A DNA stretch of 64,000 nt. Source: Nitrospirota bacterium. Lineage in GTDB: Bacteria; Nitrospirota; Thermodesulfovibrionia; Thermodesulfovibrionales; JdFR-88. The position numbers and the translations under genes are program-made. Under the pieces are notes generated by a model. It saw only the letters and a program-made list of their open reading frames with translations. It made no database searches and was not told the DNA's origin. Location: NCBI GenBank assembly GCA_021825295.1, contig JAKAHV010000014.1, positions 1-64,000 of the forward strand, given 5' to 3'. Below, one piece after another: positions 23,075 to 29,107 of this stretch; position 1 is the first letter of the stretch; every line of letters starts with the position of its first letter.

Positions 23075-23854
23075 TTGATCGATAACGGCGTCGGTCCGCA
23101 GCCCGTGCGATGCAAAAAGCGCCCGGCGGCCGCCTGGCTGCTGCCGGGGCTGCTCGCGGCCGGCATCTTCCTTTGCCCCGGCATGGCGCGGGGCAAGACA
23201 TTCCTGCTTAACACCTCCAGCACCTATCCGCTTTCCACTCCGGAGGGTAACGGCTCCCTGGATTTGATCATCAGGGAGGCGTTCCGCCGTATAGGTATGG
23301 ATGTGAAGATAGTCCGGGTTCCCTCCGAAAGGGGTCTTGTGGATGCCGACAGGGGGATCGATGACGGGGACTTCGTCCGAGTCGCGGGGCTTGAGAAGAT
23401 GTATCCAAACCTGGTCAGGGTGCCGGAGCCCATCTGCGATTTCGAATTCACTGTCTTTACGAAAGACCTCTCCATCAGGATCAATGGATGGCGGAGCCTT
23501 AAGCCGTACAACGTAGGCATCATAACCGGATGGAATATCCTCGAACGGAATATAACGGGCACCCGTTCGCTGACCGAAGTGGGAGACGCCAACGCACTCT
23601 TCGAACTGCTAGCCCACGGCAGGGTGGATCTGGTCGTATTTGACAGGGTGGAGGGCGACGCCGTCATAAAAAAGCTGGGGCTCTCCGAGATAATTGCGCT
23701 CAAGCCGTACCTTTCGAAACAGGGCATGTACCTGTATTTGAACCGCCGCTATGCCGGCCTGGCGCCAAGGCTTGCCGCGGCGCTGCTGGAGATGAAAAGA
23801 AACGGCGACATGCAGCGCTTGACAAGGTCGGCCGCCGGCCGGAAACAAGGATAA
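23075..23854 (+). CDS. Periplasmic substrate-binding-like protein paired with a sensor kinase
   Basis: A 259-aa exported protein of the bacterial solute-binding family 3 type. A signal peptide (hydrophobic about 20-38, ending ARG) is followed by two alpha/beta lobes (LIIREAFRRIGMDVKIVRVP early; VGIITGWNILERNI and GRVDLVVFDRVEGDAVIKKLG later). There is no transporter nearby. It directly precedes, and overlaps by one base, a membrane hybrid kinase, so it probably presents a ligand to that kinase. The start is TTG after AAGGGC; TTTTATGGTTTAAT upstream may be a -10 region. Confidence 0.75.
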   Translation: MIDNGVGPQPVRCKKRPAAAWLLPGLLAAGIFLCPGMARGKTFLLNTSSTYPLSTPEGNGSLDLIIREAFRRIGMDVKIVRVPSERGLVDADRGIDDGDFVRVAGLEKMYPNLVRVPEPICDFEFTVFTKDLSIRINGWRSLKPYNVGIITGWNILERNITGTRSLTEVGDANALFELLAHGRVDLVVFDRVEGDAVIKKLGLSEIIALKPYLSKQGMYLYLNRRYAGLAPRLAAALLEMKRNGDMQRLTRSAAGRKQG

Positions 23855-26469
23855 TGACCGGCCCGCAGGGACAAGTCCAGAACCTGATCTGCCGGCGCCT
23901 GCTGAAAAAGGTCCTTCTCTTCAGCGTGGCGCTTACGGTCATCTTCACTGTCATACAGGCGTGGATGGATTACCGCGTCCGGATGTCGGGCATCAACGAG
24001 ACGATTGACCAGGTCAAAAACGTCCAGGTCAGCGGGCTTACCACGTCGCTGTGGAAATACGACAGGCAGGAACTGGCCGCCGAAGTCGAAGGGATACATC
24101 ATTTCAGCTACCTGAACTACGCGGCCGTCATAGACCACGGCAGGGTAATCGCCCAGGCGGGGGAAAAGAAGCCGGGCAACGTCATCACGCGTGAGATTGC
24201 GCTTACACGCATCTACAACGGCGGGCGGATCATGCTTGGCACCCTGTACCTGCAGGCCGACAGGGCCGGGGTGATCCGCGATGTCCTTGAGAGGATCCTG
24301 TTTATCTTCCTGTTTCAGGCGGCGACGGTCGCGATCGTGGCGTCCTTCCTGCTGAGGCTCTTTGAGACGATGGTCACGCGCCATCTCTCCGTGGCCGCCG
24401 CTTATTTCCGCTCCTTCGATGTATCAAGCATGAACGCCCCCCTGGTGCTGGACAAAAAGGCGGAAGGCGATGAGCTCGACACCCTGGCCGACGCCTTCAA
24501 CAGCATGCGGAAGCACCTTGCAGACGCCTACCGGCGGCAGCTCCATGCCCAGCAGGAGATCGAGGAGAGCGAGAAGCGGTTCCGCGTGCTGTTTGAGCAG
24601 GCGCCAGACGCCATCACCGTCTTCGACCAGGACGAAAACCGGTTCGTGGACGCAAATGAAAACGCCGTGCGCCTCTTCGCACTCGGCCGCGAGGAGCTGC
24701 TGAAAACCGGTCCGCAGCGGTTCTATACGGATGCCCAGCCGGACGGGCACCCCGTCTCGGAGAGCGTGTCCGAAAATATCGGCCGGGTCATGGCCGGAGA
24801 ATCAATGACCGTCGAGAGGATGATCCGGAGCGCCGACGGCAAGGAGCGCCTCTGCGAGGTGCGGCTTGTCCGGCTGCCATCGGGCAACCGCAGGCTGCTC
24901 CGGGCAAGCCACATAGACATAACCGAGCGCAGGCAGGCGGAGAAGGCCCTCTTCTATGCGGAGAAGAGGTTCAGGGACCTCCTCGAAACCATCCAGCTCA
25001 TAGCGGTCATGCTGGATTCGGACGGCAGGGTCACCTTCTGCAACGACTATTTCCTCGGCCTGACCGGATGGCCCAGGGATGAGGTGCTGGGCGGCAACTG
25101 GTTCGATATGTTTTTGCCGGAGGAAACCAGGGAGAGCGTCAAATCGGTCTTCATGTCCATCCTGGAAAGCAATGAGCCCCTTCATTTTGAAAACCCCATT
25201 GTCACCCGTAAGGGCCAAAAGCGGCTTGTCATATGGGACAATTCCGTTTTGCGGAATTCCGAGGGCAGGATCATCGGGACCGCAAGCCTGGGCATCGACG
25301 TCACCGAGCAGAGAAAGCTTGAAGACGGGCTGCGCCGGGCGGAGAAGATGGAGGCCATCGGCCAACTGGCCGGCGGGGTGGCCCACGACTTCAACAACAT
25401 CCTCTGCGCAATCGTGGGATATGCCCACCTGACGCTGATGAACATGCCCGATGGCAATCCGGCCAGGGGGAACCTGGAACAGATACTCCGGGCGTCCGAA
25501 AGGGCGACCACTCTGACACGCAGCCTCCTTTCATTCAGCAGGAAACAGGTCATCAATCCCAAGCCCGACAATCTGAACGACATCATCCGGGGGGTGGAGA
25601 AATTCCTGTCGAGACTCATAAGGGAAGACATCGAAATTAAGATCAGGTGCGCCGGGGACGATATGACGGTCTTTGCCGACAGGGGGCAGATCGAGAGGAT
25701 GCTGATGAACCTGGTCACCAACGCGAGAGACGCCATGCCCGGAGGCGGGCGCATAGCGATCGGGACGGGGAAAGTGCGCATGGATGAGGAATTCATCAGG
25801 ATGCACGGCTACGGCAAGGCGGGCATGTACGCCGTCATCGTCGTCTCGGACACCGGTGAAGGGATGGACGCAAGGACCAGGGAGCGGATGTTCGAGCCCT
25901 TTTTTACGACCAGGGAGCCGGGGAAGGGCACCGGACTCGGGCTCTCCATGGTCTACGGCATCGTGACGCAGCACAACGGCTTCATCGACGTGGACAGCGA
26001 ACCCGGGAAAGGGACGGAGTTCAGGATTTACCTGCCGGTCATAAACGCAGTCGCCAAGGACCAGCGGAGGCAGGCCGGGGTTGCCGCGGCGGAGGGCGGA
26101 TTCGAGACGCTTCTTGTAGCGGAGGATGACGAGGCGATCAGGGCGCTCAATACCGAGATACTGCGAAATTACGGATACAGAATAATCGAGGCGGTTGATG
26201 GCGAGGATGCGGTCGCAAAGTTCCGGCTGTACAGGGATGACGTGCGGCTGATCATCATGGACGGCATCATGCCCAAGAAAAACGGGAAAGAGGCCTATCA
26301 GGAGATAAGGGCGATAAACCCCTCGGTCAAGGTGATCTATGTGAGCGGCTACACGGCGGACATTATCAGCAGGGAGAGCCTGCTGGAGCCGGGCACAAAT
26401 TTCCTTCCAAAACCCGTCACGCCCTCGGATTTGCTGAAGAAGGTGAGGGAGGTGCTGAAAGAGCGCTGA
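23854..26469 (+). CDS. Membrane hybrid histidine kinase (sensor-HAMP-PAS-PAS-HK-REC)
   Basis: An 871-aa kinase. TM1 (about 17-37), a compact periplasmic sensor (about 40-145), TM2 (about 150-170), a HAMP-like linker, two PAS domains (about 240-350 and 370-490), a HisKA domain with LAGGVAHDFNN, an ATPase domain (N-box VTNARDAMPGGG, DTGEGM, GKGTGLGLSMV) and a C-terminal receiver with phospho-Asp in IIMDGIMPKKNG. The AHDFNN H-box type usually transfers phosphate to the attached receiver. Coupled to the upstream binding protein; no response regulator gene with an output domain follows. Confidence 0.93.
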   Translation: MTGPQGQVQNLICRRLLKKVLLFSVALTVIFTVIQAWMDYRVRMSGINETIDQVKNVQVSGLTTSLWKYDRQELAAEVEGIHHFSYLNYAAVIDHGRVIAQAGEKKPGNVITREIALTRIYNGGRIMLGTLYLQADRAGVIRDVLERILFIFLFQAATVAIVASFLLRLFETMVTRHLSVAAAYFRSFDVSSMNAPLVLDKKAEGDELDTLADAFNSMRKHLADAYRRQLHAQQEIEESEKRFRVLFEQAPDAITVFDQDENRFVDANENAVRLFALGREELLKTGPQRFYTDAQPDGHPVSESVSENIGRVMAGESMTVERMIRSADGKERLCEVRLVRLPSGNRRLLRASHIDITERRQAEKALFYAEKRFRDLLETIQLIAVMLDSDGRVTFCNDYFLGLTGWPRDEVLGGNWFDMFLPEETRESVKSVFMSILESNEPLHFENPIVTRKGQKRLVIWDNSVLRNSEGRIIGTASLGIDVTEQRKLEDGLRRAEKMEAIGQLAGGVAHDFNNILCAIVGYAHLTLMNMPDGNPARGNLEQILRASERATTLTRSLLSFSRKQVINPKPDNLNDIIRGVEKFLSRLIREDIEIKIRCAGDDMTVFADRGQIERMLMNLVTNARDAMPGGGRIAIGTGKVRMDEEFIRMHGYGKAGMYAVIVVSDTGEGMDARTRERMFEPFFTTREPGKGTGLGLSMVYGIVTQHNGFIDVDSEPGKGTEFRIYLPVINAVAKDQRRQAGVAAAEGGFETLLVAEDDEAIRALNTEILRNYGYRIIEAVDGEDAVAKFRLYRDDVRLIIMDGIMPKKNGKEAYQEIRAINPSVKVIYVSGYTADIISRESLLEPGTNFLPKPVTPSDLLKKVREVLKER

Positions 26470-27419: not shown

Positions 27420-27890
27420 ATGAAAAGACCAGCCGAAAAATCCGAGGATTTTTTGAACCTGATGGTGGACTGGCAGGCAACCGAGTACCAGATAATCGAA
27501 TACGCAGGCAGGCAGGCCCCGAAGACCAAAAACCCCCTCATAAAGACGATGCTTCAGACGATGGAGCTTGAGGCGAGGAAGCGCTGCCTTGTTCAGCAGA
27601 TGATCATCGAGAGCATCAAGAAAGAGTCTGTAAACCTGGACCCGGAGGACCTGCAGGCGCTCTCGGGCCATCTTAACCATCAGATCGAGGCGGAGGAAAA
27701 GGCCCTCCCCCTGGCGGAGGCGGCGCTCAAGCAATGCGAACTGTTCATGCCGCGTTTTCTGCTTTCGTACCTCGTCGACGAGCTTAAGAAGGAAAACGGC
27801 CTGCTGAGGCAGTTTGAAGACGAGGTCAAGGGTGCGGCGATCCCGACCTCGGCCAGCTCGAAGCTCTTCGATTCGGGCAAAGAAGGTTAA
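27420..27890 (+). CDS. Hypothetical all-helical cytosolic protein
   Basis: 156 aa, no signal peptide, no membrane segment. Composition suggests four amphipathic helices (about 8-30, 42-68, 78-108, 112-140), rich in Glu, Lys and Leu, with an unstructured Ser-rich tail. Glu residues recur in each helix (ATEYQII, MELEARKR, HQIEAEEKAL, YLVDELKKEN), which is compatible with a ferritin-like bundle, but no clear diiron motif is seen. A strong binding site AAAGGAG precedes the ATG by 7 nt. It lies 14 bp before the globin-coupled sensor gene, with which it is probably co-transcribed. Not assigned to a family. Confidence 0.7.
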   Translation: MKRPAEKSEDFLNLMVDWQATEYQIIEYAGRQAPKTKNPLIKTMLQTMELEARKRCLVQQMIIESIKKESVNLDPEDLQALSGHLNHQIEAEEKALPLAEAALKQCELFMPRFLLSYLVDELKKENGLLRQFEDEVKGAAIPTSASSKLFDSGKEG

Positions 27891-27904: not shown

Positions 27905-29107
27905 TTGACCGCGCGGGCGGCCTCTGCTAAAGTTTTTCCGGAGATGAGATACCCGAGTGTTGCCCTTAGCGTGCCTTTCAGCAAACTGAACCTCTTCATG
28001 GAACAGCTTGGCCTTGCCGCGGCGGAGGAAGTTGCGGCCATAGAACCGTACAAGGGGCTCTTCGTCGAAAAGGCGCGCGAATTTGCCGGCTATTTCCACG
28101 ACATCTTCATAAACATAAACGATACAAGAAAGCTCATCGAGCAGCTTGAAAATCCGCAGACGCTCAAAAACGCCTGGGAAAACTGGTTCAGGACGGTCTT
28201 CACACTCGAAATGGACGAGAACTTCATGGCCTACCTGTGGAGGATAGGCATGAGGCACGTGGAGGTCAACCTGGACCAGCGCTATGCCAACCTTGGTTTC
28301 TCGATGGTGAGAAAATTCTGCGGGCGGATAATCCAGGCCCAGGTGCCCGCGGAAGACCAGATGAAGGTCTACATCGCCATAGACAGGATACTGGATTTCT
28401 GCCTGCTCACAGAGACCAGCGCGTACATAGACGCCACAAGCCGCTGCGATGTGGAGATCATCAGGGGCATCGCGGACCGGATAAGAAACCCCATAACCGT
28501 CATCGGGGGCAATCTGAGAAGGATACGGAGGGTCCTGGACATAAATGACCCCTCATACTGCCTTGTGGAAGACATCATTGCCCAAAGCTCAAGGTGCGAG
28601 ACGATGGTGGCGGACATAGGGACGTACGTCGAGCTGTCCCAGAAGGAGGCCTACACCGTAAAGATGTCGCTGCCGGACCTGATAAGGCTCGTGCTCGATG
28701 AGCTCTCGGCGAAGACAAAGGCTGCCGGTGTGGAGATAGAAATGCGCATAGACCCCGTGACAACCTCCATCGATGCGGACCCCCCGGACATCAAGATCGC
28801 GTTTCACCAGTTGATTGAAAACGCCATCGAGGCCGCAGCCGAGTCCCCGAAGCCGCGGATCACCATAGCATCGGAACCCTACCGGGCCCCCTTTAACGCC
28901 GTAAAGGTAACCATTTTCAACACCGGGACCCCGCCCCGCCCCGAGGAAGTGGAGCGGATATTCTCCCTGTTTTATTCCACCAAGCCGGGCGGCTCCGGCC
29001 TTGGTCTTCCCATAGCCAGCCTGGCGATAAAAAAGAGCTTCGGAAGGCTCGCCATCGAGCCCGCCGCAGACGGCGCGCGGGCGGTGATAGTGCTTCCGAA
29101 GGGTTAA
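27905..29107 (+). CDS. Protoglobin-coupled histidine-kinase-like protein without phosphoacceptor His
   Basis: A 400-aa cytosolic sensor. The N-terminal protoglobin domain (about 25-175) has the proximal haem His118 in LWRIGMRHVEVNLDQRY, so binding of O2, NO or CO is likely. A HisKA-like helix pair follows, but the H-box reads GIADRIRNPITVIGG, with Asp191 where the phosphorylated His should be. In the ATPase domain the N-box (QLIENAIEA) and G2 box (GGSGLGLPIA) are intact, whereas the G1 box is FNTGTPP in place of DxGxG. It starts with TTG at 27905 or ATG at 27944; binding sites are weak for both. Confidence 0.82.
   Translation: MTARAASAKVFPEMRYPSVALSVPFSKLNLFMEQLGLAAAEEVAAIEPYKGLFVEKAREFAGYFHDIFININDTRKLIEQLENPQTLKNAWENWFRTVFTLEMDENFMAYLWRIGMRHVEVNLDQRYANLGFSMVRKFCGRIIQAQVPAEDQMKVYIAIDRILDFCLLTETSAYIDATSRCDVEIIRGIADRIRNPITVIGGNLRRIRRVLDINDPSYCLVEDIIAQSSRCETMVADIGTYVELSQKEAYTVKMSLPDLIRLVLDELSAKTKAAGVEIEMRIDPVTTSIDADPPDIKIAFHQLIENAIEAAAESPKPRITIASEPYRAPFNAVKVTIFNTGTPPRPEEVERIFSLFYSTKPGGSGLGLPIASLAIKKSFGRLAIEPAADGARAVIVLPKG

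Follow-up and report, generated by a model that had tools for sequence, protein, structure and literature searches.

The window, a 64,000-nucleotide stretch of a Nitrospirota contig, encodes a protein in which a protoglobin domain is joined to a HisKA/HATPase core carrying Asp in place of the phosphoacceptor His. Although descended from histidine kinases, the protein does not, judged by its residues, function as one. Our preferred, if tentative, reading is that it is a soluble gas sensor in which a haem globin is linked to an ATP-binding core that is dead as a kinase and may act as a phosphatase. The features on which the argument draws are as follows.

27420..27890, + strand: upstream 156-aa protein, no Pfam or NCBIfam match
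27944..29107, + strand: globin-coupled Asp-box kinase-like gene, 387 aa from the ATG at 27944, a start common to close relatives in the alignment
28007..28435, + strand: protoglobin domain (PF11563 match; 2w31 match, E 3e-12)
28256..28258, + strand: codon of the proximal haem His, H105 (RHVEV), aligned with the His of 2w31 and invariant in 27/27 relatives
28457..28618, + strand: HisKA-like DHp domain, a two-helix hairpin (PF00512 match; AlphaFold helices 169-197 and 203-233)
28475..28477, + strand: Asp178 (Asp191 from the TTG start), codon GAC, at the phosphoacceptor His site
28478..28480, + strand: Arg179, replacing the HisKA catalytic Glu/Asp (R 19, K 8, M 1 among 28 globin-type members)
28487..28489, + strand: Asn182 at +4, the HisKA phosphatase Thr/Asn position (28/28 globin-type members; role from PMC3510030)
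28778..29101, + strand: HATPase_c (CA) domain with N, G1, F and G2 boxes present (PF02518, E 1.9e-11; ThkA CA domain with ADP, TM 0.88)
28916..28927, + strand: G1 box F-N-T-G, the Asn variant as in ThkA (alignment with ThkA and relatives)

An alternative TTG start at 27905 would give a 400-aa product. The protoglobin (41.6 bits, cut-off 25) and HATPase_c (44.8 bits, cut-off 26.4) domains exceed their Pfam thresholds, and the HisKA match scores 24.0, slightly below its cut-off of 26.9. An AlphaFold2 model based on 27 aligned relatives is confident (mean pLDDT 86.8) and comprises globin helices, a signal helix interrupted at a conserved R-C-D, the DHp hairpin and an alpha/beta ATPase domain. Its best PDB matches are ZraS, HK853 both alone and with RR468, RetS (6dk7), DivL (4q20) and the ThkA CA domain.

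Asp at the phosphoacceptor position

Read directly from 28472, the DNA gives GCG GAC CGG ATA AGA AAC CCC, or A-D-R-I-R-N-P. The original prediction, which reported an Asp in an H-box IADRIRNP, was therefore correct, its residue number 191 being counted from the TTG at 27905. The closest solved core, ThkA (3a0r, E 1e-23), aligns without gaps (VAHEIRNPITIIGG in ThkA, IADRIRNPITVIGG in the window protein) and places D178 on the phosphorylated His of VAHEIRNPIT. A whole-protein profile run against 177 genomes from the window's order yielded relatives in 28 of them, the window's own genome among these, and one further relative came from elsewhere in the class. Asp was found in 30/30 copies covering the site, from 29 genomes, a result that is not built in because the relatives were gathered with a whole-protein profile. 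The Asp is thus a conserved subfamily trait, a point on which the prediction had called for a check. Among alignable canonical kinases, the site is His in 40/41 and the following position E/D in 40/41, while Asn at +4 is the commonest residue there too (30/42).

Other conserved His residues were sought in the DHp region and none was found, the commonest column reaching 5/27 relatives; this rules out an alternative phosphorylatable His there and bears out the predicted lack of a phosphoacceptor His. Residues C168 and D169 are invariant immediately before helix 1. The original prediction overlooked two things: that the phosphatase Asn at +4 is kept, and that a wider Asp-box group extends beyond the globin proteins.

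That the Asp reflects a decaying pseudogene or a sequencing error is extremely improbable. A read error at the codon is refuted by the homologues, all of which carry Asp; the frames are open, and dN/dS across the gene is 0.11-0.27 among close relatives, indicating purifying selection. The DHp domain has the lowest values of the three domains (0.05-0.17 between close relatives). A DHp freed from function by loss of its His would be expected to drift, yet this is the most tightly held part of the protein, which argues against decay. The single indication in favour comes from genome G112, in which the globin Asp-box gene (L059, L061) is split by a frame change. This split copy could represent either a pseudogene or a misassembly.

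Haem globin, ATP site and the closest known systems

The haem-binding His proposed earlier is present as H105. With a protoglobin domain above cut-off and a proximal His, the protein qualifies as a protoglobin-type globin-coupled sensor, and binding of haem and gas is predicted on this basis. In AfGcHK, the distal Tyr for O2 recognition is Tyr45 (PMC8697598). The putative distal Tyr site of the window protein, column 52 (28097-28099), is Tyr in 16 relatives, His in 6 (the window protein among them) and another residue in 5, a variation hinting at differing gas preferences.

Nucleotide binding is likewise predicted, from an ATP site in which N293, N326, G328, F343, T346, G352 and G354 are invariant among relatives, in line with the earlier view that the rest of this site is preserved. 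The accompanying hint of a damaged G1 box, FNTGTPP, does not hold. ThkA shares the Asn variant (WNSGPPIPEE), and the crystal structure of its ATPase domain includes ADP and Mg, so the FNTG box is not degenerate; the model matches this ADP/Mg-bound domain (3a0t) at TM 0.88. The overall picture of a globin-coupled kinase-like sensor that lacks its His and keeps its ATP site thus stands with the exception of the degenerate G1 box, and signalling via conformation, as was also proposed, is possible.

AfGcHK and NmpU, from Anaeromyxobacter and Myxococcus respectively (PMC8697598, PMC11841059), resemble the window protein in having an N-terminal protoglobin with proximal His, a HisKA-type DHp and a HATPase_c domain, and in being soluble and of similar length. 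AfGcHK, however, autophosphorylates at His183 (PMC8697598), where the window protein has Asp178. A sampled Myxococcota protein of the same architecture (L129) aligns with the window protein over almost its full length and carries AHEIRNP where the latter has ADRIRNP. In the tree described below, the L129 core falls among the His-bearing canonical kinases rather than in the Asp-box group, on a branch that is long; the idea that the window protein is simply AfGcHK minus its His is not supported, with the same caution over branch length. The closest core sequences are those of ThkA (TM1359) and of ZraS/AtoS-type HisKA kinases (3a0r, E 1e-23; AtoS model). ThkA shares the Asn variant of the G1 box, but these proteins are kinases with both His and Glu present, whereas the window protein has neither.

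Two pseudokinases offer partial parallels. DivL of Caulobacter (PMC4211667) also has a HisKA/HATPase core with the His replaced and is a close structural match (4q20). It differs in having Tyr at the site, poor ATP binding, PAS inputs and a known partner, DivK~P, in contrast to the Asp plus Arg/Lys, the intact ATP-site residues and the globin input found here. RetS of Pseudomonas (PMC5992135), matched structurally by 6dk7, is a kinase-dead transmitter that acts as a phosphatase on, and an inhibitor of, another kinase. RetS keeps HExxT while its ATPase domain is degenerate; the window protein shows the opposite, with His and Glu lost and ATPase motifs intact. It would work unlike canonical kinases, and not exactly like DivL or RetS either.

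The wider Asp-box group and its gene neighbourhoods

Alignment of kinases from the same genome identified a second one with an Asp box, the membrane protein L003, whose box reads VADRVRNP. The 177 genomes of the order were then searched with a 20-base pattern encoding A-D-[RKQNHS]-[VIL]-R-N-P; 71 of them were hit, with 115 matches compared with 4 for the reversed pattern. On reading 90 non-globin loci, 74 proved to have a DHp + HATPase core with an Asp box; because the pattern itself picked out these proteins, it dictates their D, R, N and P. The boxes mostly follow an [A/S]-E-R-[T/A/S] stretch, and group inputs include receiver domains, a Tll0287-like domain and multi-span membrane segments (membrane assigned by reading). 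Of 25 pattern loci from a second phylum, 4 are genuine Asp-box proteins. The N-terminal stretch of these four (L287-L290) looks RsbT/anti-sigma-HATPase-like by reading, possibly giving two ATPase folds per protein. None of 20 pattern loci from the window's own phylum outside the class was an Asp-box kinase, so the pattern alone is not proof. A scan of viral contigs gave no matches, and in a scan of genome contigs only ordinary kinases matched the core.

In a tree calculated without the motif columns, support was 100/100 for the globin type, 100/97 for the ERT-type and 99/93 for the second-phylum type. A branch setting all Asp-box proteins apart from the others was recovered in 91% of bootstraps (89/80), again with motif columns left out, and a quicker tree agrees with this grouping. 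The result speaks for a single replacement of the His followed by sensor swapping, without proving it. It is conceivable, though short of probable, that Asp-box cores represent a single ancient class of regulators that arose from histidine kinases but is distinct from kinases, combining a functional ATP site and a fixed D-[R/K]-x-R-N box with many interchangeable sensors (haem globin, membrane, receiver, RsbT-like). Such proteins would act as phosphatases gated by a sensor, or would read receivers, and the Asp would take part by mimicking phospho-His. The group comprises about 80 kinase-like proteins, which are probably phosphatases or regulators of other signalling proteins, and is apparently undescribed. 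An NCBIfam scan returned no name for it, and the literature searched, whose coverage is incomplete and leaves absence unproven, held no description of the group or of a gas-gated pseudokinase of this type.

No regulator or kinase is a consistent neighbour in 29 globin loci and roughly 70 further Asp-box loci, and most globin-type copies are orphans that stand alone. The upstream 156-aa protein was considered as a partner and set aside: it has homologues in 64/177 genomes of the order, yet it sits directly upstream of the globin gene in a single bacterial family and is common elsewhere without such linkage. In one genus a PAS kinase also lies just upstream. Further upstream in the window (23854-26469) lies a CHASE5-PAS-PAS-HisKA-HATPase-REC hybrid kinase with ordinary domain matches. 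At L211, L213, L215 and L243, receiver-Aspbox-HATPase genes directly follow a same-strand HK-REC hybrid gene, making these candidate partner pairs. Membrane Asp-box kinases at L160, L208, L212, L216, L229 and L232 are repeatedly found downstream of an SPFH/slipin-like gene (YERGVVFRLGRV; by reading), often separated from it by a DedA/TVP38-like membrane gene or a short membrane protein, and adjoin fabH/plsX-like genes on the opposite strand (names by reading). Such surroundings hint at a connection with membrane or lipid state.

Candidate modes of action

We consider it plausible, without rating it as probable, that the window protein is a gas-gated phosphatase devoid of kinase activity that acts on a response regulator or on the receiver of a hybrid kinase. 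Haem oxidation, or binding of a gas (O2, NO or CO), would move the signal helix, and the DHp-CA core would thereby alternate between two states. The first would dock the phosphorylated receiver of a separate response regulator or hybrid kinase, with Asn182 positioning a water that leads to removal of the receiver phosphate; the second would not. The haem step is modelled on AfGcHK (PMC8697598) and NmpU (PMC11841059), in which ligand or haem binding controls the kinase; by analogy, the window protein may be switched by its haem.

The combination of D178 (30/30) with R/K/M179 and N182 (28/28) means that kinase-specific residues are lost while the phosphatase residue is kept, a kinase-minus, phosphatase-plus pattern. 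Work on CrdS and three other HisKA kinases assigns the two activities to different residues: the one adjoining the His is required by the kinase reaction and not by the phosphatase reaction, and the converse holds for the +4 Thr/Asn (PMC3510030). CrdS H371A and E372A abolish kinase activity and keep phosphatase activity, with RR~P half-lives of 2.6 and 0.4 min, respectively, against 53.5 min for the regulator alone, whereas N375A loses the phosphatase (47.6 min) (PMC3510030). RetS provides a natural kinase-dead transmitter phosphatase acting on another kinase's receiver, an activity that needs the Thr of HExxT (PMC5992135). The strong constraint on the DHp, the invariant haem His and ATP site, and the resemblance of the model to ZraS, HK853-RR468, RetS and DivL also support the phosphatase reading. 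Several observations count against it: the lack of any consistent regulator or kinase neighbour among copies that are mostly orphans; the frequency of Asn at +4 in canonical kinases, such that its invariance may be structural; the loss of phosphatase activity in PleC H610A (PMC3510030); and the behaviour of DesK H188E, which mimics phospho-His and traps the phosphotransferase rather than the phosphatase complex (PMC5231405). A further point against it is DivL, a natural His-less case that has Tyr there; this protein lacks both kinase and phosphatase activity and reads phosphorylated DivK (PMC4211667).

DivL is also the established precedent, as a receiver-sensing pseudokinase, for a serious though doubtful alternative, in which the window protein is a non-catalytic allosteric pseudokinase with a binding role like that of DivL or RetS. 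It would bind a receiver or heterodimerise with a kinase in a gas- and ATP-dependent manner, with Asp178 mimicking phospho-His and stabilising the docking state. The phosphomimetic DesK H188E binds its regulator with normal affinity (PMC5231405), the model matches DivL 4q20, and receiver-fused Asp-box genes come after HK-REC hybrids (L211, L213, L215, L243), all of which are consistent with such a role. DivL binds ATP weakly, however, while the ATP-site residues here are invariant, which would be needless for a pure scaffold, and Asn182 is retained. The invariant ATP site and the lack of a consistent regulator gene nearby would also suit a conformational switch that binds or hydrolyses ATP and has its output outside two-component signalling; this is unlikely given that no domain is more conserved than the DHp hairpin, with which receivers dock, and that the core resembles HK-RR complexes. 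Less likely still is that the protein remains a kinase, with Asp178, Cys168 or another residue accepting phosphate or with the His of a partner kinase being phosphorylated. The intact ATP site and the invariant C168 and D169 just ahead of helix 1 would fit this, but the acidic residue required in HisKA is Arg/Lys in nearly all members, CrdS E372A, D, G and Q are all kinase-inactive (PMC3510030), and the DHp is without a conserved His.

Annotation pipelines would label Asp-box proteins as sensor histidine kinases. Should none of the group prove to be an active kinase, many of the kinases predicted in these bacteria would run in reverse, removing or reading phosphate rather than adding it. The natural loss of His and Glu with retention of Asn is the same combination as in the CrdS separation-of-function mutants, and this match makes the Asp-box group a natural test of how far the phosphatase and kinase functions separate, with its globin member a candidate gas-gated pseudokinase.
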